This document shows positions 2,501 to 60,949 of a stretch of 64,000 bases of DNA, in pieces. The stretch covers positions 62,001 through 126,000 of the forward strand of contig JAOTOM010003973.1 of assembly GCA_034440615.1 (NCBI GenBank), read 5' to 3'. The first letter of the stretch is position 1, and each line of letters begins with the position of its first letter. A program made the position numbers and the translations under genes. The DNA comes from Ashinkailepas kermadecensis (taxonomy: Eukaryota > Arthropoda > Thecostraca > Neolepadidae). The notes under the pieces were generated by a model. The model was given only the letters and a program-made list of their open reading frames with translations. It did not search any database and was not told the DNA's origin.

Positions 2501-5500
2501 GTGAGTGCTGCCCCCCCCCCCCTGCGCGGCGGTACGTCGACTCGGACACGTGGCCGGGGGCGAGTAGTCTCCCAACCGAAAGGTCGTGAGTTCGGGTCCC
2601 ACCCGTCGCTACTCTTCGCTCGCCATCAAGCGGCATGAGAGATTGGCGACGCTATGCAACCCCACAGTTGGGGCGTCATACAGCCAATAACCACCAGTGT
2701 GTCCGTGGCGGTCAGGCTGGACCCGTCGTCACCGGTTCTGTGTGATGGGTCATCGGCACGGTCGCATGTGATTAACGCCGATGGCATTGTTCTCAGACGT
2801 GCGGGTGAGCTTCCCGTGAACCAGGAATGGTTTGGCGACTCGTTCGTTACCCTGCACGCGCATTTAGGCGCCGGGAAAATTCGCCGGTGACGATTCACAG
2901 TGCGTAGCTGTCGTCTCGTGCCAGGTGTTTGTACAGAGGTACGGGCGAGGACCAGTAGAACCGGCGAGGTTCTGAACTCCAACAGGGCGAGGACTGTTTA
3001 ACCGAACCGAGCCGGGGGCAGCTGTCCTTTTTCTGCGGTTATATTTGCCAGTGTCACGTGTACGTCAGTGGACTGCTGGAGCGCCTGCAACCCATACGCT
3101 ACGGCAGGCGGGTGGACATGTGACGTCTTACGGATGTGTGTTGTCTGTGTCCGCAGTCACAATAGACCCGATTGAAAAGAGCAAGAACCTTGGATCGGCA
3201 TTGCCTCTGTCATCGCAAGGCTCTTCTTCCGACCCCGACTACGTCATCAGTGAGTAGTGGCCTGCTATAGTTGGTGTGCTCAAATTCATTTTCGGCTGTG
3301 CGTCAGATGTAGCTGGACGATCAAATGTTTGATTTCAGAGATGTAGATAACGTTGGTTATGCATGCACAATTTCTATGCTCGTAAGGAACGGTTTTTTTC
3401 GGTGCAGTATCCAACAACACCACACAAACCTGAAGCTAAAGGCAAATAATGCTAGGCGCATTTAGAATATCGTGGATCTTTATCGGAGTTTGATAACAGA
3501 TCCATTCTGGATCTCTCATCAAGATGGCAATAAATTATTCGTGAAATAGGGTGGAATATTCCACTTTCTGAACACTGGATCGACACCCGTTCCAAGGAAG
3601 TATCAACATCGTTTTCTTGATGAGTCTTTATGACGTTTTCATACATAATTTCTAACAGTATCTCGTTGATAGGCACCATGCTTATGCCCACCATTGCGGA
3701 TCATGATGCACGAACATATCTGCGAACATTGCGGATGCACGAACATATCTTTGGGCGCTGTATAACCTAGGCAGTTGATGCGCCCCGAAACCCCAATAAC
3801 AACAACAACGAACATATCTTAGCACAATTCCAGGTAAGAGGTTTGCTTGTGCTGTGGTCTGTCATGCAATATCAGTTGGTAAGCTTAGGTATTTTGTATC
3901 GTTACTGTTATCCCTGAATTAAGTATCTGGCAGCAAGCGAAAAAGTATGAGTACACTGTTGGATCAGGAATATGCTAAAAATCGTGATCAGCGGTATCAT
4001 TTACGTGGCAAATTTCGACATCCTACTATCCTCGTTTCGACATCTCACACCTAACGAAAAGCCATTATTTTAATACTGTATCCAGAACATGATACTCTTC
4101 AGCAAAGTAAGAATTAAAGCAGTTTTTAAAGATATTTTATGTGTGGAAACTGTTTGCACTCTGCAGGGTGGACCAAAAAGGATGTCAGTATTTGAATTGG
4201 AAATAAAACATGTATTGTTGAAAGTAGGCACTTCGCAAGGGCATGATCAAAAAGGCACGTTTCATGGAGCTTATGCTACAACTGGGGACAGCTGGCGTAT
4301 ACATGCGGATGGCTGCTTACACATCACATTTTCTACGTGGGCACCATCACAGCTCGGCCCAGAGAGGCACGGCTCGGCCCGCGTCTGGGCTGACTCGATG
4401 GCTCGGCGGCACGTTCTTCGTTCCACGTTATTGTTGTTCCGTCTGAAAGCTAGTTCCCAATCAGTCGATACGAATTTCAGTGGCGTCATAGATTTTGTGA
4501 CCCAAGTAATCAACCAATAGATTTTAGGACAACACACCGCTGATCATGTGGCATAATCACAAGACCTGAGCTGGCTTCCTACACCCACACCCTTCCCGGA
4601 ACATACCCTTTACAAAAACATACTCCGGCTTCGAGGAAAAAAAAATTCGACTCAGTACCATGAAAGTAAGCTCTTCCCACTTAGCTCTTCAGAAGATGAG
4701 CTTTTACTCTGGAAGATTGAGTGTCGCTGCTTCAGTTCAACGTGCGCTAGATGACGACTAGCAGTTAAGGCGCACTTAAACCCAGATAATCAATCATGCT
4801 TCAGCCCAAGCTGAATTTGCATGAGCTGGAAACTTGAGTTGTTCCACTGTGATGCTTTATGACTGGTATTTCTTGGCAAATCGAAGGTATTTCGTGGCGT
4901 GATGGTTGCAGCGGTAATACCGGTGATGATCGTGATTCATCATCCGCGACGCTTTTAGCTTTTTCATCGGTTACGCTGTTATTCCATGCCTTACCATACT
5001 GATCCCGTTGCGATCATTTTCAGCTTACTCAACCCACTCTGGTCTTTTAACACGCGCCCTGGAGGGCCTCTGAAAATTACGCGCACTGGTGGTGGGAGGG
5101 GGGGCGGATTCCGCCCCCCCCCCTAAGGTCTCGGCTCCCATTAAAGCTGGAGGAACGAAATTCGCAAGGTAGATGGGTACGTTACTGAACTCTATTGTGT
5201 GCAAATTTCATGACCTTAGGTCTTCAAGGTCAAATGAGGTCACGTATATCAAACTTTCCTTATTTTGCGTGGCTTGGCTTGTCATTGTTATGGATCGCTG
5301 TGATTGTGTTTAAATGCTCCAAAATGGGCATCAATGATGTTTTGGACATTACTAATGGTGCAATACAGATGCAAGACTCGGTATTTGACCTCAGGTCACC
5401 TTTATAGCAGCACTTTATCTGGTCAGTTACTGGAACCTGGCCGTCCGCCCGACTGCTCCGTCGGGCAGCTCGGCGCGATCGGCTTCGCGAAGAAAGGAGT

Positions 5501-6674
5501 GAAATACATGAATAAAGTACGGAAACGCTTAGGTACACAATGACAAACAGTAGTTTTCAGAATGCATAGGGAGTAACATGCAAAGCGACATCAATCGCAT
5601 GACAGTCATTTGCATTTATGACAACATTCCAGTTGACCAAGTTTGGTTCCATGGTCACCAAGTTCCATTAACCTGTCATGAACTTGACCTGACTTGACCT
5701 CGGTGACCTAACATGACCTTGAAACTATATAGCATCAATATACATCGAACAATTCGCTAGTGTTGCCAAGAACACTCCTTTTGCCAATTTACGGGAAGCG
5801 CATCAGCGCCGATTTTTGTGGTTTGGCGCCACGAAATGTTTTGACTTTAACGGCTCCTAACTCGAATTTTCTTGGCCGATTTCCGTTTTTCTTGCTTAAA
5901 CGACGCGCCGGACATTTCTAAGCAGGTACGCAAAAATGGCGTATATCGACCGGTAAAATCTGGTTATGTACGAAAAAGCGGAGGGGTGGGCGGATTTCGC
6001 CCCTCCCCCCCCCCTCGAGTGCGCGTGTTAAAATACATTTTACGCCTCCCCATCCGAAAGTTCAGAAGAATTACCCATTAAGCAAGCATATTACCACCAA
6101 AATAATGTTTGTCGAAGATCTGGTGGTGTGTGTGTGTGTGTGTGTGTTTGTATTATGTGCGCGCGTGCATGCATGCGTGTGTACCGAGAATAGTCTTGGA
6201 AGCGTCCGAACTCGCGATTCGGACGTCTCTGCCGTCCGAAGGCGGGTCAGATCATCGGACCGCTCGGCCACACGCACCTCAAGCCTTTGCAGATGCTTCT
6301 CTCTGACCTCGTCATGACTAATTTCAGCACACACAAGCTACCCATTTCCGTGTCCGTTCTGCGAGAAGTCGTACACCTCGTGGGGCTTCCGTCGCCGCCA
6401 CATCAAGGCGTTCCACACGTCTGGGCCGACACTCAAGTGCAAGTGGTGCTGGAAGGTGCTGCCCACGCACGACGAGTGGTGCGCGCACGTGACGCGCGAA
6501 CACCACCTGTCGGCGACGGACGCGCAACACGCCATCCAGATCCTGGACGAGGCCAACATGGTGCTGCAGACGTCCGAGCCGCTGCGACTCGACTCGCTGG
6601 TGGACATGGTGAAGCGGCAGCAGCGGCGCGTCTCCTCGGCCAGTCCGCCAGAGACGGCCGGAGCCACCTCGTGA
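1965..6674 (+). CDS. C2H2 zinc-finger protein, 3' part (exons 1965-2500, 3157-3249, 6328-6674)
   Basis: This is a putative nuclear DNA-binding regulator; the family member is not recognised. Three exons join in one frame: the donor at 2501 (GTGAGT) leaves one base, the acceptor before 3157 supplies two, the donor at 3250 leaves one, and the acceptor before 6328 supplies two. The predicted C-terminal part reads: a Cys-containing stretch, a polyproline block, a basic PPKRQRV nuclear-localisation-like motif, IKEEPSSP (a phosphorylation-dependent sumoylation motif), a Ser-rich linker, then two C2H2 fingers (CPFC-x12-H-x4-H and CKWC-x12-H-x4-H), a helical tail with KRQQRR, and a stop at 6672-6674. 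The first exon(s) lie upstream or outside the window. An additional exon inside the 3-kb second intron cannot be excluded. The stop codon lies inside the first unit of a 51-bp tandem array. Confidence 0.75.
2550..2700 (+). mobile_element. tRNA-derived SINE, degenerate copy in intron
   Basis: A B-box-like GAGTTCGGGTCCCACC lies at 2591. It is followed by a body (GAGAGATTGGCGACGCTATG) that matches the other SINEs at 43255-43412 and 50610-50772, and by the hairpin module ending in CAATAACCACC. The tRNA A-box end is not clear, so the 5' boundary is approximate. It sits about 50 bp inside the intron after the 2501 donor, next to a poly-C run. Confidence 0.6.
3157..3249 (+). CDS. Zinc-finger gene, short linker exon
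   Basis: A 93-bp exon between GTCCGCAG and GTGAGTAG encodes TIDPIEKSKNLGSALPLSS and SSSDPDYVI. Both intron phases agree with the neighbouring exons. It is acidic and Ser-rich with no domain, and is likely a flexible linker before the fingers. Confidence 0.7.
3430..4080 (+). repeat. Dispersed repeat, copy A (unclassified)
   Basis: Blocks at 3530-3590, 3855-3920 and 4010-4075 match, in order and inverted, 33120-33640. Shared words include TTATTCGTGAAATAGGGTGG, CAATATCAGTTG and TTAGGTGTGAGATG (reverse). There is no coding capacity. A tiny SINE has inserted at 3751. The class is unknown; it may be a non-autonomous DNA element or an old LTR fragment. Confidence 0.6.
3751..3809 (+). mobile_element. 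Ultra-short hairpin retroposon (nano-SINE) copy 1
   Basis: It reads TTGGGCGCTGTATAACC, CAGTTGATGCGCCCC, CCCCAATAACAACAAC. It is flanked by the direct repeat ACGAACATATCT, directly left of 3751 and again ending at 3819, which marks it as an independent insertion of about 59 bp inside dispersed repeat A. Confidence 0.8.
4081..5046. other. Intron, no gene seen
   Basis: Open frames at 4089-4537 run on both strands with no recognisable motif and no good splice pairs in the phase of the zinc-finger gene. Confidence 0.4.
5051..6027. mobile_element. TTAA-flanked DNA element (977 bp, piggyBac-like ends)
   Basis: It is flanked by TTAA at 5047-5050 and 6028-6031. The left end CACGCGCCCTGGAGG and the reverse complement of the right end CACGCGCACTCGAGG agree at 13 of 15 bases. 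G/C homopolymer runs sit just inside both ends (about 5090-5123 and 5982-6015). The interior has many AGGTCA/TGACCT hexamers (5208-5720). It contains no transposase, so it is non-autonomous. Confidence 0.7.
6121..6180 (+). repeat. GT-rich microsatellite
   Basis: A (GT)n run grades into GCGCGTGCATGCATGCGTGT about 150 bp upstream of the terminal zinc-finger exon. Confidence 0.9.
6328..6674 (+). CDS. Zinc-finger gene, terminal exon with two C2H2 fingers
   Basis: The acceptor ATTTCAG ends at 6327. The exon reads YPFPCPFCEKSYTSWGF, RRRHIKAFH, then LKCKWCWKVLPTHDEWC and AHVTREH. Both fingers have C-x2-C-x12-H-x4-H spacing. A helical tail (ATDAQHAIQILDEANMVL) and the basic KRQQRR follow. The last dozen codons, SSASPPETAGATS and the TGA, are the first unit of the 51-bp repeat. 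Confidence 0.85.
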
Positions 6675-9215: not shown

Positions 9216-9317
9216 CGTGATTATATATATATATTCCCAGTGGTATGACGTGAGATGTATATCGTGTGGCATGCATCTCGTCAGAATTTGACTGGTTGTG
9301 GCTTTTCGACGCACTCA

Positions 9318-9442
9318 TAAGCTGAGGCCATATGGCATCGCCTGCCTCTCGCCCTGGCAGGAATGACGGGTACCGCCGGGAATCAAACCCCGTACCTCTG
9401 GCATGCCAGATGCTCCGCTACACCACTGAGCTACCGACGCCC
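9318..9442 (-). mobile_element. tRNA-derived SINE fragment
   Basis: On the minus strand GGTAGCTCAGTGG (A box) and GGGTTTGATTCCC (B box) are spaced as in a tRNA. A truncated version of the GCGATGCCATATGGCC module follows at the 3' end. It does not fold as a functional tRNA: the anticodon arm is CTGGCATGCCAG with no normal 7-nt loop. Confidence 0.65.
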
Positions 9443-9647
9443 CTCTCGTCGGAATTTAATCTCACTGACTTCTAATGTGTCCAGAGGTTCATAATCCTGT
9501 TGATGTTAGTCTCATGAGTTGTAACAGCTTCCTCGAAAATGTTCGCAATTTTTCAGGTAATCTGACGTTGTACGTATGTCTGTCGTTCACACTACCCAAC
9601 TGACAGATCATCTCATCAAGAATATCCATTGCATTTTGTATTTTTAG

Positions 9648-12079: not shown

Positions 12080-12774
12080 GTGCCATAAAGACATAAAGAC
12101 ATACAAGATCAGTGCAACTATGAGCCACAAGGGCCCTTCTTGGTTGCACTCTGGACACTGAACCAGTTGCCCACCAAATCCGTCGATCAGCCCTCCCTGG
12201 AATACCGAACAGCAAGCCCTCTTTTCTTATGTGTGACTATGCTGTTTTTAAAGATGTTCAGTGTGCTGCTACTGACAATGGTTTCTGGAAGCTGGTTCCA
12301 ATGTTCTACTACCCTGTTGGTGAAGAAAGACTGTCTTAACCTTGTCCTGCTGTGATTAACTTTAATGTCGAATTGATGACTTCTACTTGCATCACTTACG
12401 TTAAATTCAAACATTTCCCTGAGATATCCTTGTTCCTGACCATGAACAAATGTAAAGACCTCGATGAGATCTCCTCTCAGCCTTCTATATCTAAGTGAAA
12501 ACATATTCAATTTCTTCAATCTTCCCTCATATGCCAGGTTGCTTATACCGTTAACCATTTTTGTTGCCCTCTTTTGTACTCTCTCTAAAAGCCAACAATC
12601 TTTTTCATAACTAGGGGACCAAGCTTGGACACAGTATTCCAAATGTGGCCTAACATACGCACAGTAAAGCTTCCTGATGACTTCCTCACTTTTGTATGAT
12701 ACGTTCCTATTTATTGCCCCAAGCATTCTTAGTGCCTTCTTCCTGGCTTCTTTTGTCTGTTCTGATGCCCCCAT
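12080..12774 (-). mobile_element. 5'-truncated L2/CR1-like LINE, C-terminal reverse transcriptase part
   Basis: The minus frame 12187-12774 encodes the end of a non-LTR retrotransposon ORF2, with YCAYVRPHLEYCVQAWSP, KRATKMVNGISNL, YRRLRGDLIEVF and EHWNQLPETIV. The 3'UTR contains AGGGCCCTTGTGGCTC, a motif shared with the copies near 27.1, 27.4 and 30.1 kb. It is truncated at an A-rich stretch (12775-12787). The catalytic RT domain itself is missing, so it cannot move by itself. Confidence 0.85.
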
Positions 12775-13376
12775 TTTTTTTTTTTTTAAATTTAATTTTG
12801 TGTCAGGTCCACACGGGCTAGCCTTCTATCTTACGAACTATTGACGATGGCAACGGTTGTGCGTTTGAGGGCAAGGCAAGAACCTGAAAAGGAATCGCAA
12901 AAAGCATGGACCATACTACCTACCTGTATGAATATGTGAGTCCGAAGCATTTGAACTAATGGCAAGTGGACAATCATTAAGTACACACAATTGTGATAAA
13001 CTGATGTGGGGTGATGTGATAGGCTTATAGCGACATATTGCAGGATTATTAGTAGTGCTACCATCATCTGGTTCGGTAGTTAATGTCTAAATGAAATGCT
13101 ACTGCAAGCTGGAAATGGTGATTTGGAGAGCTGATCATGATTGTGATCAGACTTGTGCTCGACTCACATTTTTTAGTTGACTCACATGTGACTCATAGAC
13201 CTTGAGATCTGATTCGACTCATGATTCAGAGCAGGTCAAAATTATTTGATTCGACTCAATTCAAACTCAGAACTCACAAAGCATGATTTGACTCATGACT
13301 CAAGCAGACTGGCATAAATTTTAATCGATTCAGATCAGACTCATGAGCCATATGATTCAGTGTGCACTGTCCTCAC

Positions 13377-14410: not shown

Positions 14411-16540
14411 TTACACGCCGAAGAACGAGCGACGCCGATCATTTGCTGCGAAGAACTCCGAGGCAATGGCATCCACATCCAGCTCGTCGACGCGCTGACG
14501 GTGCACAGTGCACACCATCGCAGCGTTAAGTCGGGCCTGACCCATGGTAGAGCGGAGATACGACTTGATGCGTCGGAGACAGGAGAAAGAGCGCTCTGCC
14601 GTGGCCGTTGTTACTGGTACAGTAAGGTACAGCCTTACCAGCGTCAGCACTTCGCTCATCATGTTACTGAACACTGTACCACCCGACTGCTTTGCCCCCC
14701 ACGAGAGCCTGAATCACTTGGTGCACGCTCTTTCCTCCGTCTCCAACCACATCAGGTAGCATTTGCAGCTGCACTTCCAATCGTGCAAGGTCCAGATCGC
14801 CGCCATACAGATCCTTTACGGCGACGGGGACGGTGAAGTGCCTTCCCGCACTCGCATCCTCCAACAGTCGCTCCACCTCGCGCACTTTCTGGAACGTCGG
14901 TTGCAGGAACCTTTCCTTGAGCTGAGTGGTCAGTGTGTCCAATATCTCGAAGAATTGGCGTCGATGTAGGTCTTTCACGGTGGAGTCGTGGTACTGTCCA
15001 CCGCCGTCCAGTCGCATGGGAACTTTCCGCTTTCGAGGCAGTTTGGGACCATCCACACCTGCTGCCGCTGCCAACCTTTCAGCTCTCTCGAACATCCTGT
15101 CGAAAGACTCAGTTGAGCGCATCCCCTCATAGCGCTCGCACACACGTTTCACCGCCTCCTGTGTGTTTCCCACTGTCGCTGTCGCTGACTGGAGGCCACG
15201 CGACAGGTCCTCTGCTAGAGAGAATACCTCGATCGCAATGAGCAGCCCGATAAACGTATCGAACTGCTCCATGAGCGCCAGCATTCCTCCTGCTTTTCGA
15301 CCGTGATCGTCACTTGCCTCAGCACTGACTTCCTCCAGGGTGCTCATCACGTGCTCGTAGTTATCCACTACGCTTCGCAGCGACGCGGTACGGCAGGTCC
15401 ATCGCGTGGGGCACAACGGCCGCAGAGTGCCGCCAGCTGACTCTGCGGACAGCGTCACGCGTCGGAGTGCTGCGGCCGTCTTCGGCGAGTTTCTGACAAA
15501 GGATGTCAGCTCGTTGGTAATATCCAGGGCATTTCGAATCATCTTGTTTTTCCTGGCTGCCTCCTGCAACGCCAGATTTGTACAGTGTGCCAGACAATGG
15601 ACATGCAGGGCTGATGGACACTCTTCGCTGATCCTCGCCGCCACTCCTTTCACTCGCCCCTGCATATTTGCAGCCCCATCGTAGGCTTGTCCGCGACAGC
15701 GACTCAGCGGCAGCTCCATACGCACCAGTGCGTCCTTAAGCGTGTCCGCAAGTACTTCACCGGTGGTTACCTCGGTGTGAATCAGTTCCACGGGATCCTC
15801 GTTGATCTGCAGATTGGCGTCCACCCAACGTATGGAGAGGCTGACCTGCTGTTTGAGTGACAAGTCAGTGGCCTCGTCTGCTAGAATAGCAAAGAACTTT
15901 GCCTCTCGGATGTCTTTCAGCATGTTGCGCAGAAGTGTCGTGCCGATCGAACGAATCAGCTCGTTCTGGATCACGGGAGACAGGTAGTGATTCCAGTTGT
16001 TGAGCTCTGGCACGTCCTTCTTTCTGACGAGGAGGAGTTGGCTGAGGTTCCCGTCCATTTCGTGTTTCCCCCTTATGGGAATGTTTTGTCGCAACAAGTA
16101 TACCAGAGTCTCGATGACCTTTTTCAGGCATTTTCTGCGCCGGGACTGCTCCTCGCTGGTCTGCTGAGACAGAAGCGCAGAGATGGTCTGCTGTTTCTCT
16201 TTCAGTTCTTTCGTGCATGCCTCATGGTGACACATTGAGTTTTCATGCGTTTTGAAACTCTCTTGCGCCTTCTTCCAATTGTTGAAGCCATCTTCCACAT
16301 ACGCAGCCTCTTTGTTTTTGCTCATCGTTAGCTTTCCGAGCTTGTGCTGCCTCCGGCATACATGACAGAAAACTTTTCCAGACTCTAAGCAGAGGCTTAG
16401 CCACGCATAATTATTGTACCATTCGGGACAAAATGATCGCGTTCGTCCGCCCTGATCACGCGCAGTCTTTGAGAGCGTGGCAGTGTCGGTCGGTTGGTGG
16501 GGATGGACCGTGGAACAGCAAGGCGATGAGCATGGTGGAA
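14411..16540 (-). pseudogene. hAT transposase, main exon with frameshift
   Basis: The acceptor TATTTCCTGTTTTCAG ends at 16541 on the minus strand. The frame runs from VPPCSSPCC through the zinc finger, the catalytic Asp residues and DUF4371 to a premature stop at 14664. The dimerisation domain continues in a different frame to a stop at 14411. One ATG at 16325 lies downstream of the zinc finger, so starting there would lose that domain. Confidence 0.75.
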
Positions 16541-23039: not shown

Positions 23040-24720
23040 GTCCCCCCCCCACTGAGAGGTTGTGGGGCCGCCAAGAACCGCGCCAGGCTTCGGAAAAATT
23101 GCGCCGGATCCCCTAAAAATATCGCTGGGGGCACCATAATTCGCTCCGGGGTCCTGAAAATACGTCCAGGGTCCAACAAGTCTGGCCCGACGGGGCCCTC
23201 AAAATGTCGCCGGGGCACCAAAATCGCACTGAAGCCCACGAAAATAACATTAGGCCCCCTCCAAAAAAACGTTCAATGACCACTAAGAAGGACGTTGGAT
23301 CTCCAATTGTGGGACCGGGCCCCGAAGGAGTCGCACCGGGGCCCTTGAAAATAACGTTGGGAGCCTCAAAAGGTTGGGTCTCGAAATAGCGCACAGAACC
23401 CCAAATGTCTGACCGTGGCACCTAGAAATAACGTTGGGTGTCGATTCGAGGCCACTAAAACTTGCGCTAGGGACATGGGTGTAGCCACATGGGGGGGGGA
23501 CATGTCCCCCAAGTGACTTGGGATCCCAACAAATGACTTTAAAGATGGACCTCTACCATCAAAAATTACACCGCGGCACCATCGAATTGACTCGAGCACC
23601 GGAATATTAGGAGCAGGTCCCGAAAGTATATTATCCGCAGGAGCTTTCTACTCTGAAGGGTGCCATCGGCTGAAAAACGTTGAACAGCCGCAGTGGCGTA
23701 CCAAGGGAAAAATGCCCTCTTCCATCCTGAGAGGGATAGGCTGCCAGAATCGTGCTGGGATCCCACAAAAGTCGTGCTTGGGCCCCAAGAAATCGCATCG
23801 GGCCCTCGAAATTCACGTAGGGGGCTCAAAATAAATGAAGCGGGCACCGGAAAACACGCACAGGGGTCGAAAAGAATATGCACTGGGGCTCGCCAAAATC
23901 ATGTTGGGACCCCAGCTAAGTACAATGCGCTCAGCGAACTTCCAGTTAGTTAGTTATTAGGGCTTTAGGGCGCATCGACTACATCGGTCATGTAGTGCCC
24001 AGAACCAGCGAACTTCCAGCGACCCTCCCCCCACAAATATCGCGCTCGGGACCCAACATTTTCGTCGGTAGTACCAAAAATGTGTGTCGGGCATCAAATA
24101 CTGCTGCCGGGGATCCCAAAAATTGGCGTTGAGGGCACCAAATAAGCACAACTTGGCCTCCAAAAAAATCGCATCGGGACCCGAAAAGATAAATCTGGAG
24201 CTCTCCAAAATAAGGCAGGGTTATTTTTTAAAAAATGTTCGGGCCAGGAAAATAGCTCTGGAGCTCCAATCATAGCAGCAGGTGCCTTCAAAAATCGCGT
24301 ACGGCCGCGAAGAAACGCATCGGAGCTCGAAAAAACGCGGCGGGACACAAATATGGCGCCGGGTGTGCGAAAAAATCAGGCTGAGATTTTGACTTGAAGG
24401 AAATTTAGAAGAGGTCCCCAAAAATCGTGTCGAGCGCAGATAACTGGCGTCAGGTACCCAGAACCACGCGCCGGGGCACGAAAAGTTGCACCGGAACCCC
24501 CAAAGTCGTGCTGGAGCCACAGATAAACACAGCAGGGCTCTAAGAGCACGAGAGGCGAAAAGGCAACTGGCCCTCCAAAGCGCACCGAGTCTCGCAAAAA
24601 GCGCGAGAGCCTTCAATGCATCGGTGCACAAAAAGCAACAAACCCTGGCAAGAGCCGGGGTCTGGAAAAATGTGCCGGGCCCCTAAACAAAATTTGCTGG
24701 AGCCCGGAAACACATATGTG
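23040..24720. repeat. Old, highly degenerate tandem array, about 31-bp period
   Basis: For 1.7 kb, words like GGGCCCCTGAAAAT, CACCAAAATCGC and GGGACCCGAAAA recur with a spacing near 30 bases. No two neighbouring units are identical. It is interrupted by MITE-like debris at about 23473-23520 and by the retroposon at 23946. No frame is conserved. The period is judged by eye. Confidence 0.55.
23946..24005 (-). mobile_element. Nano-SINE copy 2
   Basis: It reads, on the plus strand, GTTAGTTATTAGGG, TTTAGGGCGCATCGAC, CATGTAGTGCCCAG. CAGCGAACTTCCAG is repeated exactly on both sides (14 bp; 23932-23945 and 24006-24019). Confidence 0.88.
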
Positions 24721-29900: not shown

Positions 29901-31740
29901 TCAGCATCTTGCCAGCCCTGTATAAACCCAACTAAGCATATTCAAACATAATCTGACATAGCTTAACATAGTGCAACCTAAGCTAATACAACATAGCTTA
30001 TATGGGCGCAAAATGACCAATGCAGTCGACGCACCCTAAAGCACAAATCCACCACCACCACAACATAGCTTATCATAAAGTCATGAAGTTCAAACACTTA
30101 AGAAGAGCCACATGGGCCTATATGGGTTCAACCTATAAAGAGGGGATAATATAAGATGAGAAAAAGGGACTGAAACATCCTAACCACAAGACGACAAAAA
30201 GAAACTGATGCACCCCAACCAATGCTATATCCTGGGTTCTGAATACACTGCCATGCACATGTCACGAGCATAATTCCCCATGTATAACATGTAAGACACC
30301 TATCATCAATCCCATTGCACCCACTCCAACCTCAGGGTTAGTTTCCGTTTGCAGGTTTTCAGGTTCCAAACACAATTTGATCTGTATAATAGGGTGGGGG
30401 TGCGGGCGCAACGAGCCCCCTTGGGTGTATAATAGGGTGGGGGTGCGGGCGCAACGAGCCCCCTTGGGTGTATAATAGGGTGGGGGTGCGGGCGCAACGA
30501 GCCCCCTTGGGTGTGCTAGCGATTGCAACCTGCTGAAAAATGGACTCATTGCTGGATGCCGTTGGGGAAAAGATGTTTGAATGTCAGGTATATGGAAATT
30601 GTGCGCACCAACACTAACTACTATGACCTACTACAACACTAACTACTAGCTAATTCATGACCTACAACAACACTAACTACTAGCTAATTCATTGGTGGTG
30701 AATTAGCCCATGCACCACTTTTTATGTGGCGTGGTATGCATCAAAGTCATTTTTGTTCATTTTGGTGAAAGTCACTTGACATTGGTGGTGAATTCTTTTG
30801 GATGTTGGAAAAATTTGGAAAGCTGGAAAAGTTCTGTATTTTCAAGTTCATCCATGCATGTGATATGTTGACAAGTTCATCTGAAATGTGCATCATTTTT
30901 GTATTCGTGTCATTTTCCAGAATTTTGGGGAAGGAAGGGTTCCTGGAGCAGCACAGAAGAACCCGGTTTTACGAGAAGCCCACACAGGTAAGTACTAACC
31001 ATTAACTTAGTGACGGGTCGATTGAAGGCACTAGGAAGTTTTCAGCATTGGATCGTGACCTTTATATTCAATAACATGCATGTCATGATTCGTGTTAGAA
31101 GTTACTGTTGATGGCTATGGTATGGATAATCGATATCACATCCACCTGGAATGCCGTGAAGCCGGTTGTCCTAAAAGCGTATGTGACGAGCTCGAAGTAG
31201 TAGTGGTCTCAAATACGGGTCACGGGTTTTGTTCGGTCTCTCACCAGGATGGACGTAGTTAAGCCAGTGATCAAAATATTTGATGTTCCGACCAATCCGT
31301 TCAATGCCATGCATTTTATATTTGTTCCTTTATGTCCGTTTATGAAAAAATGTCGCACAATATATATGCTTTAAAAAAAAATATATATATATATTTTTGT
31401 TATTTAAATGAATTTAATTCGAGTTCTTGTTGGGGTGGCTTTATGAACTACGGTCCTATTGCTAAGCAGAGCTAGTTGCGTGAACGCTGGCCCCACCACC
31501 CGATCCATGAATTCCAGTTCAACGGCAGAATTTTGATCCAAAGTTTAACGTGCCGTTAATGCACCGACACGGCCGTCCGGTAGCTCGTCCCCGACCTTAT
31601 CGGGCCAGCTGCCAACCGACCCTCCCAGCCGGGGGCCAAATGCGAGCGCGCGAAGCGACTCGAACCCTGCGTTGCCAGGTCAGGGGAGACCAGAGCAGGC
31701 CAGCGCTCTAACCAACTGAGCTACTTGGCAATATATATAT

Positions 31741-33040: not shown

Positions 33041-36000
33041 CTGCCGCAGAAGTGTCGGTCAGCGGCTGACTGCGCCTCTCGCGGCGTCCACACGTGCTAC
33101 TCCAGCGGCATCACGGTGCGCCGAGTGTATACTAGTGTTAAAATAATGGTTCTTCGTTAGGTGTGAGATGCCGAAACGAATACAGTAGGATGTCGAAATT
33201 CTCCATTGAAACAATGTCCTTAACATGACTTATAAGTTCTTCAAACACAATTTTGATCCAACAGCGTACACGTACATTAACGTTTTTCCTTTGCTTGAGA
33301 TACCTATATTATGGTTAACTATTTTTGCGATAGTAATACAAAAGAACCATCCTAATCAACTGATATTGTATAACAGACATCATAGATAATATTCTGACCC
33401 GAAATTGTGCTAGGAGATATTCGTTCATCACAATCCACAATGTAAGTATCAGCATGATACTTATCAAGAAGATGCTGTTAGAAATTAGACATGAAAACCT
33501 CATCAACGAATCATCACGAAGCGCGATGTCGATTTTCCGATGGGAGGGATGTCAATTAAGTGTCTAGAAAGTGGTATATTCCACCCTATTTCACGAATAA
33601 TGTATCACTGGTGTGCACACCTCCGTGCTGGGGGTCGACGACACCGCATCAACACGAACAGGCTATCGTTCGGTCACCTTGTTTTCACGAGCCGGTAGGT
33701 TTGTGGGTGTATCTAACCGGCGCGCCCATCTGCCTCACACTCGAGTCCATGCAATATTAATTGAAAGCCAATATTCACGTGTTATTTGTCACTTTTCTGG
33801 CCTTCATTGAGGAAGTGGACTCACATATTGAAGCCAGTCTGGCCCAGCCCTGTGACATCAAACTAGAATAGGCAGAGACCCGTCTCAGGCAACAGGCGAC
33901 CGGATGCTGCGGCAGGGTACTGCATTTTGAACATCCACGCCAGGCATGTGCTTTGAAGAAAAAGAAAACGACGTGAAAATAATCCAAAGTTTATGTTCTT
34001 GATATCAAACTTACTAAATTCCGGTCGCGAAAAAAATGAGCAAGAGCTAGGCTCCGCAATAATTGTGTACTCACACTTTTCTGGTGGGGGGGGAGAGTCC
34101 AATCTAGCCAGAACACATTCGCTTTTTGGGATTTTCGTGTGCATTGAAAGATAAGTTGTTGAACTATAACCAATATTGTGTAATCCTAGTCTACCACGAC
34201 GTAGACATCAATCTTTGTACGAGCTTTAAAACTAACTCGGCGTTAACTGGGTCCCGACACAACGCCATTGACTGGCGGGAGGCATCTAACGACCCTAGCC
34301 ACCTTAGCAAAAATGCACTGATTAAACTGATCCAAACGGCAACCGATAACTTTGTACCGCACGCTCTCCTCGAACGGCATGGGCGCTAAATGACCCTGTG
34401 GTTGGCGCGCCCTTAAATCCAAATAATCAATCTCCCCGAACGGTGACTGATGACTACCGCGCTCTCCCCGAACGGTGATTGATGACTACCGCGCTCTCCC
34501 CGAACGGCGACCGATAACTGTACCGCGCGCGTTCCCGGATATAAAATTGCTACCTTCGGTGTCACGCGTGACGCTACCGGTGGGGCCGAGTGAAAATGGT
34601 AGTTTCACGGCGTTGCAACCTCCCAGCATTTGATCTCAACACATCGCTAATTTTGACCGAGTTAGACGGCAATCAGTGGCCCTGGATCCTGCGGGTATCA
34701 CTGACACACGTCACGCCAGGCCTTTTGGGATCACAACTGACGCCATGGTAACATGAAGTAAAATATAGAAAACCTAAACCTAAAATTGAATTGGAAGTTC
34801 GGCACGCGGATTGAACGCGATGTACATCTTTTCACGCTACGCTTGCGTTCGTGCGGTGTCCGGTTAGCACTGCACGAGCAGACGTGCTCGATAGGCAGCT
34901 TTGGTCGAAAGTGCCAAGTCAAAATCGTGTGCTCGTCAATGCTTTTCGAACGACAGTTCACGTGAATAGAACTGAACAAAGCGGACATAAGGTTTTCATC
35001 GATGCCATCAAATAAAATTGTGGTTAAATGAATACAACACCGGCGCCACTGCCGAACACATGCAGTGCAGGTATTGAGGCTTATAGGTAACCCAGATACT
35101 AAACTGTTCAGGATTTACCCATCCGATGCACAAGCAAGACTATACTAACTAGGCTACTAATATACCTTACTAGTGTGATAATAAGCAAATATAAGATCAG
35201 AATAAAACTGGAAATATGCAACATTTACAAATGCCCATGGTGACCTCGGTAAAAGTTTAAGATTACCTTGGTATAATCTGTCTCGTGTATGGACTTCATG
35301 CTGCTTGTTTCTATAGCATGCATTCATATAGTGTGGATCGGTACCTATGACTTGAACCAAAATCGCTGGCCTATGATGACCTGGAAAAAGTCACGTGCTC
35401 CCACATTTTATCTCTCGCCATGTATAAATCATATTTCTGTCAATTTGTGGCAGCCAATAGTCTAGACCAGAGACAAATTCGGATTCAATACACCACACAG
35501 ATATTCTAATTAACTTGAAGTAATTCCCCGGACCAATCAAACATGTCCGACTGTTCCTTCCTTTTGCCTGTACCGAGAGGGCGGGATTGGAGCGAGCCGG
35601 ACAGCACGTGATACACGCACCGTACCATAGCGTCGAGAGGGTGGTGTCTCGCCACCCTGGCCCAGGCCCACGGGAGGTACCGACCGTACGGTGCCCGCGG
35701 TGGGCTGATTCCAGAATGCATTGCCGACAAAGAGTGCGCGGCGACGGCGACGGCATCGACCCAAGTCCTCCCCCTGAAACGTCTTCCCGTACAGCACACA
35801 ACTACGTCATGCCACAGCTCCGAACATTAGTATGGTCTACTCTTCCCGTACAGCACACAAATACGTCTTGCCGTAGATTTGGACACCAGTGTGTCCTAAT
35901 TCATTCTCATTTGAGCGTCAGATGTAAATAAATGGTTCGCGTCAAAATCTTCGCAATATTACCCCGATACGAGTGTGCTTTAGGGACGCCGTGATAGATG

Positions 36001-42000: not shown

Positions 42001-45000
42001 CTAGAATTAAACTTGAACCAATAATGGTACAAATGTATCATATCATGCAGCATACATGACATGCGGCATCCCTTGCATAATAACACATTGGGGACGTTTG
42101 AGGAAATTCACCATGGTTTCCATTTTCCATTCACCACACAAATCCAGGAATGACCAATTTTCCAACCACTACTACAAGACAAAGAGAAACCATTCTGCGA
42201 CCGGCCAGCAGGTGCGAAACATTCTGATCATTATTTTGAACTCGCAGCGCACCCAGCAGCCCCTCCAACACCGCCAGCAGGCGCCACCCGGCTGTCTGCA
42301 GCCCACCTGTCTGATTGTGACGGCGCGAGCTGTGGAGCCGCGCCACTCCTGCTCGGCGTACTGCAGCAGGTCCAGACACTCGCCGACCGACTCGAGTGCG
42401 CGCGCCGCCAGCGTGTCGAGCCCGTCGTCCCAGTAGGCCGAGTCGCGGTTGGCGCGCCGCTCCCGGCGGCTGTCGGCGGCGCTGTCGGCGGCGCTGTCGG
42501 CCGACGGCGAGCACGCAGAGTCTGAGCCGGCCGGAGCCCGGTCACTGCGGCAACAGCCGGCCCACTGGTGAGGGCTACTGGTGAGGAACCCACTGGTGAG
42601 GGATACTGGTGAGGAACCCACTGGTGAGGGCTACTGGTGAGGAACCCACTGGTGAGGGATACTGGTGAGGAACCCACTGGTGAGGGCTACTGGTGAGGAA
42701 CCCACTGGTGATGGCTACTGGTGAGGAACCCACTGGTGATGGCTACTGGTGAGGAACCCACTGGTGAGGGATACTGGTGAGGACCCACTGGTGATGGCTA
42801 CTGGTGAGGAACCCACTGGTGATGGCTACTGGTGAGGAACCCACTGGTGATGGCTACTGGTGAGGAACCCACTGGTGATGGCTACTGGTGAGGAACCCAC
42901 TGGTGATGGCTACTGGTGAGGAACCCACTGGTGATGGCTACTGGTGATGGCTACTGGTGAGGAACCCACTGGTGATGGCTACTGGTGAGGCACACCCGGT
43001 CCACTGGTGAGGAACACCCGGTCCACTGGTGAGGAACACCCGGCTCACTGGTGAAACACAGCTGTTGGCTGGCTGGCTGATAGATGCCCCGGGGCTCGGA
43101 TCACTGAGACTGGGACTGCGACTGGCTCACAAAGGTGAGCGGTATCAGTGACGTACGGTGATTTATCCCTGAGTAATTATCGAAACCACTGCGACAGCGC
43201 TCAAACTTCGAGCACATGACGCATGCTTCTGAATCTTAAGAAGAACCTTGGGTTCTTTTACGACGCATTCAACCGCTAGGTTATATAGCGTCGCCAATCT
43301 CTCACGCCGATTGGTCGCGGGTGGACTCGGTAATTGCCGTCGGTTGTGAGATTCGAACCCACAATCTTGCGATTAAGAGTCCGACGCTCTACCAACTGAG
43401 CTACCGCCCTTCTGAATTTTAAAGAAAGTAAGGTCGGCAAAATGAATGGACAAAGAACACCGTAGTTCACAATGATAGTTTTAACCTGCCCGTAATGACA
43501 ATAGATGAGCATACAGGGCGTAACCGTGGATAAGACACACCTGATATTCGAACACACACATAATGACCAAACTGCTCACACTGTGACCCGAATAACGGAG
43601 ACTGGGGATAGTTATTGTGGCTTAAAGACACATCAGCTGCATTGGCTATATAGCGCCCACATCGGCACAAATCCATATGAATGGATGAAACGGCAGCTTT
43701 CAAGCTGCAAACCCGAGAATGCCAATGCGATCTGCGGTAGCGTTCTGCGCGGTTTGCCACTACTCACGCGGGGGCCTCCATCACGGGCGACAGTGGAGTT
43801 CGGGTGAGCAGGCTGGAGCTGTCCATGCCCTCGTAGCCGGACTCACTCATCGGATCCGGCGCCGGCGACTGGTCTCGACTCAGCGCCAGTCTGCGGTCAG
43901 TTCCCACCAGTTCAGGACAGTCACCATTCGCTCCGGCCACAGTTATTCTCGGTGGCGGTCAACACCCGGCCACACTCCAGCCTCGGCACCAGGTCCGACA
44001 GCCGGCTCGACATCGACCGCTATACGGCACCACCTCGCGTCGCTGGACCAGCGAGAGAATCACCACATCACGGGCCGGTTGTACTGTTCGCGTGCTGAGT
44101 GAACAGGGTCCGGCAACACAACGATGTGGCGGAGACCTGGCACACTGACCGCGACTGTCCACCGTTCTCATCCGGCAGACACAGTTCCGGGTCACTGGCC
44201 GGTGCCGTGCTATTTTTGGGCGCAGTGTAGGTCGGCACAAAATCTATTGTTTAAAAAAACACATTGTGGGTACATTAGATGAAATATTGTCATGGATGTT
44301 GGCATGCCGACTTTTTACAATAGTATGGTATGGTGTGGTAGAATAGAACGGAGGTCGGTAAGTTGTATTTTGACACGATAATTATAATATAGAGCCAGAA
44401 CAATGTAGAACAATGACACCTAACAATGCAGAATGACAGTAATAACAGAATGACAATACAACTTACTTCTGAGTTCAACAAACCTGAAGCGTGGACAAAT
44501 TGACCTCCCGGCACGACGGTCTGGTCACTCGGGGTCGCCTTTGCCAAGGGTTTCTGCATGCTCACTCGTAATCATGTGTTAAATAAAACACACAATGTGA
44601 GGCAGAAGTGGTTCCTCGGGTAGTGGGAAAGCAGCATGAGCAATAGCCCCGAAGACTACTTAGACTCGAGCTGAATGAAGAGACGTCTAGCGGTAATTTG
44701 GCAGGCCCTGGTGGTTCAACTCGTCTGGAGCTAGACTGTGGTCAGGGGTGGGACTGTGGTCGTGAGCGGGACTGTGGTCGTGAGCGGGACTGTGGTCAGG
44801 AGCTAGACTGTGGTCAGGAGCTAGACTGTGGTCAGGAGCTAGACTGTGGTCAGGAGCGGGACTGTGGTCAGGAAGGAGCGGGACTGTGGTCAGGAAGGAG
44901 CGGGACTGTGGTCAGGAAGGAGCGGGACTGTGGTCAGGAGCGTGACTGTGGTCAGGAGCGGGACTGTGGTCAGGAGCGGGACTGTGGTCAGGAAGGAGCG

Positions 45001-49196: not shown

Positions 49197-49302
49197 GTTG
49201 GTTGGTTGGTTGGTTGGTTGGTTATTTGGACCTAAGGGGCGCATCGACTGCAATGGTCATACAGCGACCAGATGTGACTGCGATCCTCCTGAGGGACGAC
49301 CC
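49197..49302 (-). mobile_element. Nano-SINE copy 4 (5'-extended, 106 bp)
   Basis: (GGTT)n, then GGGGCGCATCGACTGC and TCATACAGCGACCAG, plus about 35 bp more. CGAAACTGACTG is exactly repeated at 49185-49196 and 49303-49314. Confidence 0.85.
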
Positions 49303-49319
49303 CGAAACTGACTGAGAAG

Positions 49320-50600
49320 TACAAAACGGAGTGATGCAAAACAAAACAGAGTACAAAATTATCCTCTCCGAATTGAAATTCTTCAAAAATGTTTCTCTCC
49401 AAATCAAGGATTCAAACACAGAAGTAAAACCCTGCGTTGATGCTTCACTTAATTTTTGACACAGTGAACAAGAGCTACGGAATGCGAAGACCAGGCCGGT
49501 ACACCGTTCGAAAAATGGCCAGTTCGTGCAGTTGGGTTTCTCCAAATAATTACACACTCCAAAAAACATACCCATTGTGATGTCACATGAAGACCACTTT
49601 GTATGAGTGCACACTCATACATTTGCTTGCTTGCACACTAGCAATTAATGTTTGCCATATCATCATCCAATGGTTATATTTCGGACAAAGGATGGAGCAG
49701 CATGCCTTGTGCCTGTGGGTATACTGCCCTACTCGTGCCCTATGGTGACCTGTTGATGAAAATGGAGCAGCATGCCCGGTACCTGTAGGTTTGCTGCCCG
49801 CACCCGTGCCCTATGGTGGCTTCTGGCTGATACTGGGGTTCACGTTTGGTACTCTTGTCTTGCAATATTGAGTCATTGGCACAAAATCCTGGTGACGTCA
49901 TTGGAAGTAATTGCACATCTGCCACCTCACGTGATGTCATGAGCTCCAGGGATATTCCAAGACCTGCTAGGAGCTGCACAGATAAAGCAACACGATTGGA
50001 AGGCCGGCCTGCCGGCATACACAACGGAAGCTGAACTCCGAACCACTCTGATTGCGCTCTTAATAATACTGAAGATGTCCCCTATGATCGCGAAGTGCGC
50101 TATGGTTTCGTACAGGTGAAATTATAAACGACCATAACATCATGTGCACGTTTTTCTCCAATCCATAAAAATGTTCCGAGCATAACCATTCAAGGTCAAA
50201 GAGCCGGGCAACAAAATACAGGAGGCCCTGCGGCACTGGCAAATCCAGGCACCAAATTTCGCCATCACCCGTCCCACCATACAGCGTCAAGCAGTGGTGG
50301 AGATTTTCAGTCGTCGGAAAATTTCAGGCGGTGCTTTTGCACCACCTTGTGGTTTTTAGGTGTTGCTTTTCCAAAGGCACTCATGTTCAATCTATACAAG
50401 TTGGTGGTTCTCAGCCACACTGTGAGCTCTCCATTCACCAAGGCGCCCAGAACGCGCACGACCGCTACCTTCTCGACGCGCCCAGATGGCACACCGCTAC
50501 CCTCTCGATGCGCCCAGACCGCGCACGACTGCTACCCTCCTCTCAACGCGCCTGACGGGTACGGTGTAGTCGCCTGGCAGAGGCGAGCGGCGGAACAACA
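49320..50600. other. No gene seen
   Basis: No supported exon. A diverged local repeat GGAGCAGCATGCC (49692, 49761) occurs with nearby GTGCCCTATGGTG. Short frames lack motifs. Confidence 0.4.
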
Positions 50601-50609
50601 ACTTGAGCT

Positions 50610-50772
50610 ATCTTACGGCGCATTCTACTGCAAGGCCATATGGCGTCGCCAACCTTAGGATTTGTCACGATTGGTCACGAGTGGACTCAATATTCCTGCC
50701 GGGTGCGGGATTCGAACCCGCGATCCTACCACCGAGAGTCGAACGCCCTACCAATCGAGCTACCACAACCCG
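50610..50772 (-). mobile_element. tRNA-derived SINE
   Basis: Minus strand: GTGGTAGCTCGATTGGTAG (A box), GGGTTCGAATCCC (B box), a CCAATCGTGAC body, and GGCGACGCCATATGG ... ATGCGCCGTAAG module. Same family as 43255-43412. Confidence 0.85.
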
Positions 50773-53019: not shown

Positions 53020-56000
53020 GTCGGGCTGCTTTGGTCAGACGGAGCCGCCAGATGTCAACCGCCCCGTATACTGGGCGGGGAGCAGTGCCGCGTCCGCCTC
53101 ACCTGGGCGGAGAGCACCTCCGGTCCGGCCTCCACCGGCGGACGCTAACTCAACAGTGTAATTGTCACATACCAAGCGGCCTGAAGGCGCAGAGCATACA
53201 ACACATGGATACTGTACATGGGGGGACTACGGGGTGGCGGTGGGGGCTTTAGGACGCATCGACTACATCGGCCATGTAGCGCTACGGGGTGGGAGAGAGG
53301 AATGAACGCACCGTTGGAAACAAATTTAACCTTGGCCTTATGCAGTGCACGACGTATTTTGGACCGGACTGACTGATTATCCGGTTGGTTGGTTGGTTGG
53401 TTATTTGGGCTCAGGGGCGCATCGACTGCGATGGTCATACAGCGCCCAGACTGATTATCCGGGCTTTCCGGCCCGTCAACTGCTTGGTCATTTAGCGCCC
53501 AAATATTTTGTAATATTTTATGATGCCCAAAATAAGATGTGAGTTCCAGACCGGGGAGGGGGTTATGGAGGAAGATGTCCACCAGTGTCATGCCAATCGG
53601 ACAATTAGCGGTCGACGCCCATCCCAAGCCACGGCCGGCGAGAGGCGGTGGGGGTGGGGGTGGGGGTGGGAGCGACACTCACCCGGCGGGCGCGTCTCCG
53701 TCCTCCTGCCACAGCTCCGGGTACTGCTGCACGCCCGTGTGGTCCCACTCGAGGCTGGGCAGGTCCTCGGCGCGCAGCTCCAGACTGGGCGACCGGTGCA
53801 GGCTGGAGCTGGCCGACTGGCTGCGGCTGAGCGGCGGAGGCGGCGGCCGCAGCGCGCCTGGCGGCCGGCCGCTGCTGCCGCCGCCGCTGCCGCGCGGCAC
53901 CGCCGACCAGCCGTGCTCCGGCGAGTCCCACTCGAACGACGCGTCCGTGGCGGGCGAGTCGAGCGGCCAGACGGCGGCGGCGGCGGGCGTGGACGGCTCT
54001 CCGGCCGTTTCGGCCAGCAGGCCGTACTCGGAGGCCGAGTGGCCCAGCCGGCGGGCGGCGGCGCCGGTGGCGCCGGCCGCCGGGTGCGGGAAGTGCAGCG
54101 TCACCAGATTGCTGTCCATCGCCGTCACGTCCAGCTTCAGCACGTCCAGCTGGCCCTCCAGCTGGTCCAGCAGGTCCACGGTGCCGGCGCCGAGCGCGCC
54201 GGCCCAGGACAGGTCGAGGCTCAGCTCGTCGGCGGACGAGTCGAGCGAGCCGGCGCGGCAGAGCCGACTCAGCTCGGACGCGCGCACGTCCACGGCGCCG
54301 CCGCGCTCGGCCGCCTCCAGCAGACGGCGCCGCAGCGCGCCCAGCTCGCCCGGCAGGCTGTGCGCGCGCGGCGATGCCGACGCCGACTGGCTGCTGTCTC
54401 CCGATGTGACGGCCGCCCGGCCGGCCGGCAGGATGGTGCGCCGCCTCAGCTGGCGCGGCTCCGGCGCCCGCACCGACCGGCCGCCCCGCTGCCGACAAAC
54501 AGACCACGGTCAGACTCGTGAGTACGGCAAGCGCCAGCTGCCGACACACAGACCACGGTCAGGCTCGTGAGTACGGCAAGCGCCAGCTGCCGACACACAG
54601 ACCACGGTCAGACTCGTCAATACGGCAGGCGCCAGCTGCCGACACACAGACCACGGTCAGACTCGTCAGTACGGCAGGCGCCAGCTGCCGACACACAGAC
54701 CACGGTCAGACTCGTCAGTACGGCAGGCGGCCCCGCTGCCGACACACAGACCACGGTCAGACTCGTCAGTACGGCAAGCGCCAGCTGCCGACACACAGAC
54801 CACGGTCAGACTCGTCAGTACGGAAGGCGCCAGCTGCCGACACACAGACCACGGTCAGACTCGTCAGTACGGCAGGCCGCCCCGCTGCCGACACACAGAC
54901 CACGGTCAGACTCGTCAGTACGGCAGGCCGCCCCGCTGCCGACACACAGACCACGGTCAGACTCGTCAGTACGGCAGGCCGCCCCACTGCCGACACACAG
55001 ACCACGGTCAGACTCGTCAGTACGGCAGGCGCCAGCTGCCGGACCACGGTCAGACTCGTCAGTACGGCAGGCGCCAGCTGCCGAACAGACCACGGTCAGA
55101 CTCGTCAGTACGGCAGGCGGCCCCGCTGCCGACACACAGACCACGGTCAGACTCGTCAGTACGGCAGGCCGCCCCGCTGCCGACACACAGACCACGGTCA
55201 GACTCGTCAGTACGGCAGGCCGCCCCGCTGCCGACACACAGACCACGGTCAGACTCGTCAGTACGGCAGGCGCCAGCTGCCGACACACAGACCACGGTCA
55301 GACTCGTCAGTACGGCAGGCGCCAGCTGCCGACACACAGACCACGGTCAGACTCGTCAGTACGGCAGGCCGCCCCGCTGCCGACACACAGACCACGGTTA
55401 GACTCGTCAGTACGGCAGGCCGCCCCGCTGCCGACACACAGACCACGGTCAGACTCGTCAGTACGGCAAGCGCCAGCTGCCGACACACAGACCACGGTCA
55501 GACTCGTCAATACGGCAGGCGCCAGCTGCCGACACACAGACCACGGTCAGACTCGTCAATACGGCAGGCCGCCCCGCTGCCGACACACAGACCACGGTCA
55601 GACTCGTCAGTACGGCAAGCGCCAGCTGCCGACACACAGACCACGGTCAGACTCGTCAGTACGGCAGGCGCCAGCTGCGTCTCCGTCAGACCCAATGGCG
55701 CTGTGCTGTGTTTGTACTGGGCGGCTGGGCTCCGCATAGCCACGGCAGTCGATTCGCCCCTAAACCACGGAAACTATCCTGAGTTTTGGGCCAGTTCTGT
55801 GCACAAATACAGACTTGCATAGTTTCCCCAGGGCGTATAAAGCACGGCACCAAGCGCCAGCGCCCATCGGCGGGCGGCATTGGTAGAACTGCAAATCCAC
55901 TAATGCCAGTGAGGTCCTCAAGTAAGTTGTCTCAGCAAATGTATGTCGTGTCACACCATTGAGTTACACAGACGTATTCGGAGCTGAAACAATTCGCTAT

Positions 56001-60380: not shown

Positions 60381-60399
60381 GCCGGCGTTAATGGCACCG

Positions 60400-60519: not shown

Positions 60520-60875
60520 GTTAGTGGCAGCCGGTATTTGTGGCGGCTGGTATTTGCGCCTCCAGCCCCTCGGATAGTCGGCGTGTGCGACACACCGGCA
60601 AATGTGGCACTTCCTGCTTATGACAGCCTGTATTTGTGGCCGGCGGTAACCATGCCGACTGATGGCAGCTATATTCTAAATGCAAATCCCTTTAGAACCG
60701 CACCATTTGAACCACCACCAAAACTCAGGGGTTAAAAGTATGAAAGCTGTATTTAAGACGCTCGACATACAAAGCTGTATTTAAAAAAAAACTATATTTG
60801 AAATCCACTCCACTCACTCATTTCAGGTGCAAGTCACGCATGTGGGGTAACCGTAAATAAGGAATAAATAATGGG

Positions 60876-60932
60876 TTGGTTGGTTATTAGGGTTTTAGGG
60901 CGCATCAACTGCATTGGTTATACAGCGCCCAT
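60876..60932 (-). mobile_element. Nano-SINE copy 8
   Basis: GTTGGTTATTAGGG, TTTTAGGGCGCATCAACTG, GGTTATACAGCGCCCA. GAATAAATAATGGG is exactly repeated (60862-60875 and 60933-60946). Confidence 0.9.
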
Positions 60933-60949
60933 GAATAAATAATGGGCAC

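Follow-up and report, generated by a model that had tools for sequence, protein, structure and literature searches.

What moves a retroposon that consists of little more than one hairpin and a short repeat tail? This question is raised by a 64,000-nt stretch of DNA from the barnacle Ashinkailepas kermadecensis (GenBank assembly GCA_034440615.1, contig JAOTOM010003973.1, positions 62,001 to 126,000; hereafter, the window). A preliminary description of the window had recognized at least nine copies of a hairpin retroposon, regarded as a very short interspersed element (SINE) mobilized by a long interspersed element (LINE) through recognition of its 3′ end. Among known systems, UnaL2, ZfL2-1, and ZfL2-2 possess a 3′ hairpin followed by a short repeat tail, which are common to SINEs and are recognized by the LINE protein (PMC4176376, PMC3747384). 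Our analysis of the window and of loci fetched from elsewhere in the genome revealed that the hairpin and its (CCAA)n tail are the 3′ end of a LINE, and that this end has very probably been inserted alone by target-primed reverse transcription.

The Hairpin as the 3′ End of a LINE

Regarding the donor, a LINE sharing the 3′ hairpin and the CCAA tail had been predicted, and such a LINE exists: one family runs upstream of the hairpin in L018 (4999), L017 (2354), L029 (4996), and L028 (5013, minus strand). In L018, whose frame is broken, Pfam matches to Exo_endo_phos_2, RVT_1, and RNase_H fall in separate pieces of open reading frame (ORF); the last ORF ends in ...RAIYTPH, and the hairpin lies 120 nt further on. 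As L017 and L018 have a common LINE and different downstream flanks, they represent separate insertions. The donor may belong to an I/Nimb-like group, which fits its content of an APE-type endonuclease, a reverse transcriptase (RT), and RNase H. Named relatives of its C-terminus are found in Amphibalanus amphitrite (56%) and, more weakly, in decapods, an amphipod, a tick, and some insects. A tblastn search of the window with the endonuclease, RT, and C-terminal pieces of the donor gave no match at E 1e-4. The window also contains a C-terminal RT fragment of another LINE (12187-12825, minus strand), which has matches of up to 88% identity and resembles bird LINE proteins at about 45–50%; a search of plasmids gave no match to it. 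This fragment is not shown to be a donor, as no hairpin is joined to it.

The hairpin has an outer stem of 6 bp and an inner stem of 4 bp, separated by an internal loop. Across 14 sequences, standard pairs fill 92.6% of the 136 cells of the two stems, both sides have changed in four of the ten stem pairs, and sliding the partners lowers pairing to 30–44%. In a shuffle test of covariation, the observed value was reached in 0 of 500 shuffles for four of five measures and in 6 of 500 for the fifth. In view of this covariation, the fold looks kept by compensatory change, and both the GGGCGC/GCGCCC outer pairing and the possible inner stem of the preliminary description are backed by such changes. 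An alternative inner stem (columns 8–12 with 18–23) was rejected, with 65.2% of its cells paired versus 98.2% for the chosen stem. Single-strand folding gave a mixed picture, with z-scores from −0.22 to −3.64 across eight sequences, two of which prefer this alternative stem. In an Rfam search of the whole window, the hairpin had no match at the gathering level, and a loose cut-off yielded sub-threshold overlaps only.

The whole-genome search proposed earlier, run over 907,663,968 bases with the 16-base 5′ arm TGGGCGCTGTATGACC as a probe and the reversed probe as a control, revealed matches far above background: 15,603 versus 433 at up to two mismatches, and 3,062 versus 0 for the exact arm. 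Among the exact matches, 954 are in the form of family A, and 331 have immediately before them GTTA, with which the 3′ untranslated region (3′UTR) of the LINE ends. Family A (L003, L009, L010, L012, L019-L027, L030) is a larger repeat with the hairpin at one place, which has been multiplied along with it. A second larger repeat, family B (L006, L008, L013, L016, L035, L077, and others), carries a hairpin insertion; at L006, L008, L013, and L016, another hairpin lies about 110 bp away on the opposite strand, on a tRNA-like SINE (by eye). For a 16-mer taken from the end of the LINE ORF, there were 1,703 matches versus 773 for its control. After control subtraction, hairpin matches exceed LINE ORF-end matches by about 16:1, which is a rough ratio, since the two 16-mers may differ in conservation and family A inflates the hairpin count. 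With six arm matches at up to two mismatches versus about 1.1 per 64 kb for the genome average, the window is about six times richer. In 20 kb taken from four large contigs regardless of hairpins, there was no hairpin-only copy and one SINE tail (L033). Both results speak against an even distribution of the copies. In viral contigs, three patterns had no match; a fourth had two, and the model R1 found nothing at those two loci.

A Mostly Fixed 5′ Boundary

Profile and covariance model searches of the window identified 12 hairpin-only copies (Table 1). The profile was trained on ten copies, and those ten are recovered at E ≤ 4e-11 by construction; its weaker matches (E 1e-4 to 2e-3) are 55726(+), 4744(+), 43290(−), and 62573(−), the last two being SINE tails. 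The covariance model recovered its 14 training rows and 50613-50651(−) at E = 0.033, followed by a match at E = 1.2. All nine copies of the preliminary description are present at the positions it gave; three others, at 34380(+), 4742(+), and 55726(+), had been missed. The seven copies described as bracketed by repeats of 10–14 bp have measured repeats of 13, 14, 14, 11, 10, 14, and 14 bp, and the two described as lacking readable duplications (43611 and 53455) show none here either. Four copies had been said to start at TGGGCGC, which holds exactly for two; the other two have one extra A. Relative to TGGGCGC, the nine copies with target-site duplications (TSDs) start at offsets of −3, 0, 0, 1, 1, 2, 4, 6, and 33, and their inserts measure 45–64 bp, with one at 107. 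In the 25 columns upstream of the 12 short copies, identity is 0.20–0.38, versus 0.55–0.83 in the first eight hairpin columns. The four SINEs of the window that end in a related hairpin (43240, 50593, ~2556, and 62529) all have TTGGCGACGC directly 5′ of it. This difference between the SINEs and the short copies gave the earliest hint that the 5′ end is fixed.

The boundary was also approached from the LINE. BLAST of L018:1-5050 among the fetched sequences gave 31 alignments beginning at query 4995–4999 and three beginning 603, 776, and 1,160 nt upstream, with none between those and 4995; three more, all in L027, cover the 5′ half only. By eye, the 31 alignments include 15 in family A, four in family B, and three at one site, and correspond to about 12 independent insertions.

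Two samples of genomic copies were compared for their flanks. The first comprised the first 100 listed exact arm matches, 78 of which were fetched; they lie on small contigs, and the sample is therefore rich in repeats. It left out 21 matches in the family A form and C289:42762, the loci L085 and L086 of the GTTA list also stood outside the clustering, and 25 of 80 copies examined together were set apart as having the family A form. Among 28 flank clusters, 19 have a TSD score of at least 10, a score reached by 5 of 756 mismatched flank pairs. Their offsets are 0 (13 clusters), 1 (4), 6 (1), and 31 (1), and the inserts measure 53–64 bp in 18 of the 19 and 98 in the other. Judged by eye, L005/L007 and L012/L082 each represent one insertion, which reduces the 19 clusters to 17. 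Scores below 10 were obtained for L042 (9, offset 2), L016 (8, offset 0), L065 (8, offset 1), and L003 (6, family A); the remaining clusters are one of six LINE-joined copies, the LINE-joined L028, and L057, L075, and L081, which have no assignment.

The second sample was based on the exact 33-mer of the window copy 53448, which has 188 matches in the genome versus 0 for its control, and consisted of 40 consecutive listed matches (C676-C3064) of this one hairpin variant, taken blind to the flanks. In 37 of the 40, the TSD ends within 12 nt of TGGGCGC, at offsets of 0 (18 copies), 1 (12), 2 (1), 3 (1), 6 (1), 7 (1), 10 (2), and 12 (1), so that in 30 of the 37 the TSD is separated from the hairpin by at most one nucleotide. 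As 88 of 1,560 mismatched pairs pass the threshold, about two of the 37 could be due to chance; L100 (offset 12), L119 (3), and L124 (10) have locally repetitive flanks, and L091 is the same insertion as L101. In the remaining three copies (L102, L105, L120), LINE 3′UTR lies upstream of the same exact 33-mer. The GTTA list includes 4 of 35 copies of this variant up to C2710, and the GTTA of L071 ends its own TSD.

The 33-mer and 16-mer samples are blind to copies cut within the 5′ arm, whereas the window profile is not. Hairpins with 20 nt removed still reached at least 14 bits in 9 of 12 trials, although ten of the 12 trial copies are part of the profile, which favors the test. All window hits of at least 14 bits start at or before model position 5. 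Within the limits of 64 kb, the 5′ boundary thus looks sharp from both sides. The sharp boundary at TGGGCGC expected in the preliminary description is thus seen in copies from across the genome, with TSDs far above the mismatched-flank controls; the contrary outcomes that it had named, a longer SINE with 5′ truncation at random points or flanking duplication at chance level, did not occur.

The 5′ truncation points of LINEs normally vary. The hairpin copies resemble 5′-truncated LINE copies in that only the LINE 3′ end is present, with an identical 33-mer, but their 5′ ends are not spread along the LINE. Tested on just the nine copies of the window, an exponential truncation model with a fitted mean has p = 0.007, which by itself would not be compelling evidence against truncation at random points. 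The position of 30 of 37 second-sample copies at 0 or +1, together with BLAST starts at one place or at least 603 nt upstream, makes ordinary truncation of this kind very improbable.

Target Duplications and Tails

Readable target duplications of 8–14 bp flank nine of the 12 window copies; none is readable at 43659, 53501, and 55726. In 5,000 random window frames free of tandem repeats, scores of at least 13, 10, and 8 occurred at frequencies of 0.0052, 0.0172, and 0.069, and chance flanking repeats were rejected as the source of the TSDs. The TSDs of the nine copies show one difference over 111 positions; the six hairpins with clean TSDs differ by a mean of 17%. TSDs that are nearly identical around such different hairpins suggest that the hairpin variants predate insertion and that several donor lineages were active.

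Eight window copies have a periodic tail, and in seven of these the periodicity extends in phase into two bases of the target. A corrected tail/target null never reached seven of eight in 20,000 trials and reached the summed length in 0.7% of them. This continuity agrees with the 3′ microhomology of about 80% reported for ZfL2-2 (PMC2666801). The tail units AACC, AACT, AATC, AAC, and ACC tend to correspond to the target of the copy that bears them (permutation 0.006).

The GGGCGC/GCGCCC arms are also readable as short inverted repeats, as in a DNA hairpin with terminal inverted repeats resembling a miniature inverted-repeat transposable element. However, the TSDs vary in length, the inverted repeat does not enclose the tail, and the LINE and tRNA-headed SINEs have this same end, which makes such an origin scarcely credible.

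Proposed Mechanism of Insertion

Both the anatomy of the copies and analogy with the systems described in PMC4176376 and PMC3747384 support target-primed reverse transcription by a stringent LINE. In the proposed mechanism, the source would be the last ~40 nt of the LINE RNA and the tail. The hairpin would serve as the 3′ recognition element, to which the LINE protein would bind before nicking the target, and reverse transcription would start from the (CCAA)n tail, with about two tail bases paired with the target. The template would mostly be a pre-shortened RNA with its 5′ end at the hairpin base, generated by a nuclease trimming the LINE RNA up to the bound hairpin or by a cut at the hairpin base. 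Mobilization by a LINE through 3′-end recognition, as proposed in the preliminary description, is supported by the donor LINE, the mostly fixed 5′ end, and the TSDs. The very short SINE that it envisaged holds as a tiny retroposon, not as an independent SINE with a promoter but rather as a LINE tail moved alone, with the qualification that a minority of copies (3 of 40) do continue into the LINE.

Alternatively, the enzyme would start on full-length LINE RNA, copy the tail and the hairpin, and drop off at the hairpin base, owing to upstream RNA that is hard to pass or to a change in the state of the enzyme. A stop within one base would account for offsets of 0 to +1 and for A being the commonest extra base (7 of 12); that a minority of copies (3 of 40) pass into the LINE also speaks for this alternative. 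Such an RT, however, would already have come through the stable hairpin, and it would have to stop at the same site to within one base in 30 of 37 copies. A pre-shortened template is favored because the enzyme is already past the hairpin at the end and most ends agree to one base, and an RT stop seems rather unlikely.

Several observations weigh against a pre-shortened template. The extra base in the +1 copies, A in 7 of 12, is the same as the LINE base before the hairpin. LINE-like bases were seen by eye in L096 (10 nt), L076 (6 nt), and L051 (31 nt), which a stop shortly past the hairpin also explains; those of L096 (offset 10) are TACATTGTTA, matching the LINE end by eye. Extra 5′ bases are reported in about 40% of ZfL2-2 elements anyway (PMC2666801), and the putative short RNA is deduced from genomic DNA. 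In Alu, the frequency of extra 5′ bases is reported to be the same in full-length and truncated copies, and extra bases are therefore not diagnostic (PMC2912911). By analogy with the R2 RT, in which template jumping needs non-templated addition (PMC8857657), such addition could yield the +1 bases other than A. A precedent for a pre-shortened template comes from R2, for which 5′ truncation of the template RNA ahead of cDNA synthesis has been proposed (PMC11331408).

The element could instead be an independent micro-SINE, derived from the LINE, with transcribed source loci of its own and no longer dependent on LINE RNA. The 188 genome matches to a single exact 33-mer variant and the ~16-fold excess over LINE ORF-end matches after controls would suit this origin. 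The LINE, however, carries the same variant too (three of the 40 sampled copies are joined to its 3′UTR), and no RNA polymerase III (pol III) promoter was seen by eye, no promoter scan having been run. An independent micro-SINE is improbable. Among the features of SINEs, the short copies show the 3′ end shared with a LINE and the TSDs but no 5′ head derived from a pol III RNA (tRNA, 7SL, or 5S).

Taken as a whole, the account in which the LINE machinery inserts a pre-shortened RNA composed of hairpin and tail is the one toward which we lean, with some reserve; within it, binding of the hairpin by protein and a pre-cut template in place of an RT stop are predictions from sequence. Whether a discrete RNA of ~55 nt, hairpin and tail only, would serve the LINE enzyme as its natural, preferred template and be inserted more often than the LINE itself is evenly balanced in our judgment.

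Related SINEs and Other Features of the Window

Besides the short copies, the window contains SINEs with the same fold (Table 1). Four of them (43240, 50593, ~2556, and 62529) end in a hairpin with a GACGC/GCGTC stem and have similar downstream TAAA and CCCAA motifs. This stem is present in none of the 12 short copies, and the window SINEs were rejected as donors. Elsewhere in the genome, L033:4180-4450 (minus strand) is a SINE with a tRNA-like head, a hairpin tail, and a perfect 15-bp flanking repeat AGCAACCGCATGCAG (by eye), apparently a recent insertion.

Table 1. Hairpin-only copies and hairpin-tailed SINEs in the window.
Feature	Position	Strand	Remarks
Hairpin-only copy, offset 0	3752..3807	+	TSD 13 bp at 3739-3751 and 3808-3820; target already duplicated locally, weaker TSD case
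Diverged hairpin-only copy, hairpin from 4742	4736..4796	+	TSD TGCTTCAG, 8 bp, weak
Hairpin-only copy, GTTC as 4 extra 5′ nt	23946..24005	−	TSD 14 bp
Hairpin-only copy, 1 extra A	30002..30059	+	TSD 14 bp
Hairpin-only copy	34378..34430	+	Flanking repeat 13 bp, one mismatch; adjoins 32-bp tandem array, weaker case
Older hairpin-only copy	43613..43659	−	TSD not readable
Copy with long (CCAA)n tail, 33 nt upstream of hairpin	49197..49303	−	TSD 11 bp; the 33 upstream nt unlike LINE ends examined (by eye)
Copy starting 3 nt inside hairpin 5′ end	53238..53282	−	TSD 10 bp
Hairpin-only copy, offset 0	53385..53448	−	TSD 14 bp; sits in tail of copy at 53501
Older hairpin-only copy, tail split by copy at 53448	53455..53501	−	TSD not readable
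Old hairpin-only copy	55726..55766	+	TSD not readable
Hairpin-only copy, 1 extra A	60876..60932	−	TSD 14 bp
tRNA-headed SINE, same fold, stem GACGC/GCGTC	43240..43410	−	Head is an Rfam tRNA match; flanking repeats TAAAATTCAGAAG / TAAGATTCAGAAG
Second SINE with hairpin tail	50593..50771	−	tRNA-like head by eye
Third SINE, partial, with hairpin tail	~2556..2697	+	By eye
5′-truncated SINE with hairpin tail	62529..62615	−	Profile match
Old SINE, tRNA-like head, worn hairpin	9292..9443	−	AAATTCCGACGAGA / AAATTCTGACGAGA as flanking repeat, judged by eye, as are head and limits

Three hairpin copies lie within 264 bp at 53238-53501, one of them nested in the tail of another. Other features of the window include a hAT/ZMYM1-like ORF with DUF4371 (14664-16559, minus strand), which has 77% identity to an A. 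amphitrite protein, and large minisatellite arrays at 37638-39345, 44723-47124, and 54488-55678; tandem repeats occupy about 18% of the window.

Relation to Known Retroposons

The system resembles stringent-type LINEs in having a conserved stem-loop, kept by compensatory change, on both the LINE and the SINE. It is distinguished from them by the RNase H of the LINE, a tail of the CCAA type, and the hairpin alone as the commonest product in the samples. Like tRNA-derived SINEs with a LINE tail, the hairpin copies are non-autonomous, have TSDs, and carry the LINE 3′ end, but a tRNA head and a body are lacking. Short, internally deleted R2 elements are non-autonomous remnants that keep the 3′ recognition end plus a 5′ part. 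In the tailless retropseudogenes described in therians, partial RNAs with preferred breakpoints have been inserted and the 3′ end is lost, whereas the hairpin copies retain it (PMC5322556). Among the entries listed in a literature search thin on subscription journals, there was no hairpin-only retroposon and no study of barnacle SINEs.

In these copies, the part of a LINE RNA that is needed for insertion has been separated from the rest in nature, many times over. They therefore offer a natural test of 5′ truncation on the RNA before reverse transcription versus stopping of the RT, which bears on LINEs and on LINE-based tools for gene insertion. Such very short insertions could escape repeat annotation that ignores tiny elements. 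If the template is indeed a discrete RNA of ~55 nt, the hairpin would qualify as a minimal retroposon: a recognition element able to move although it has no promoter, head, or body.

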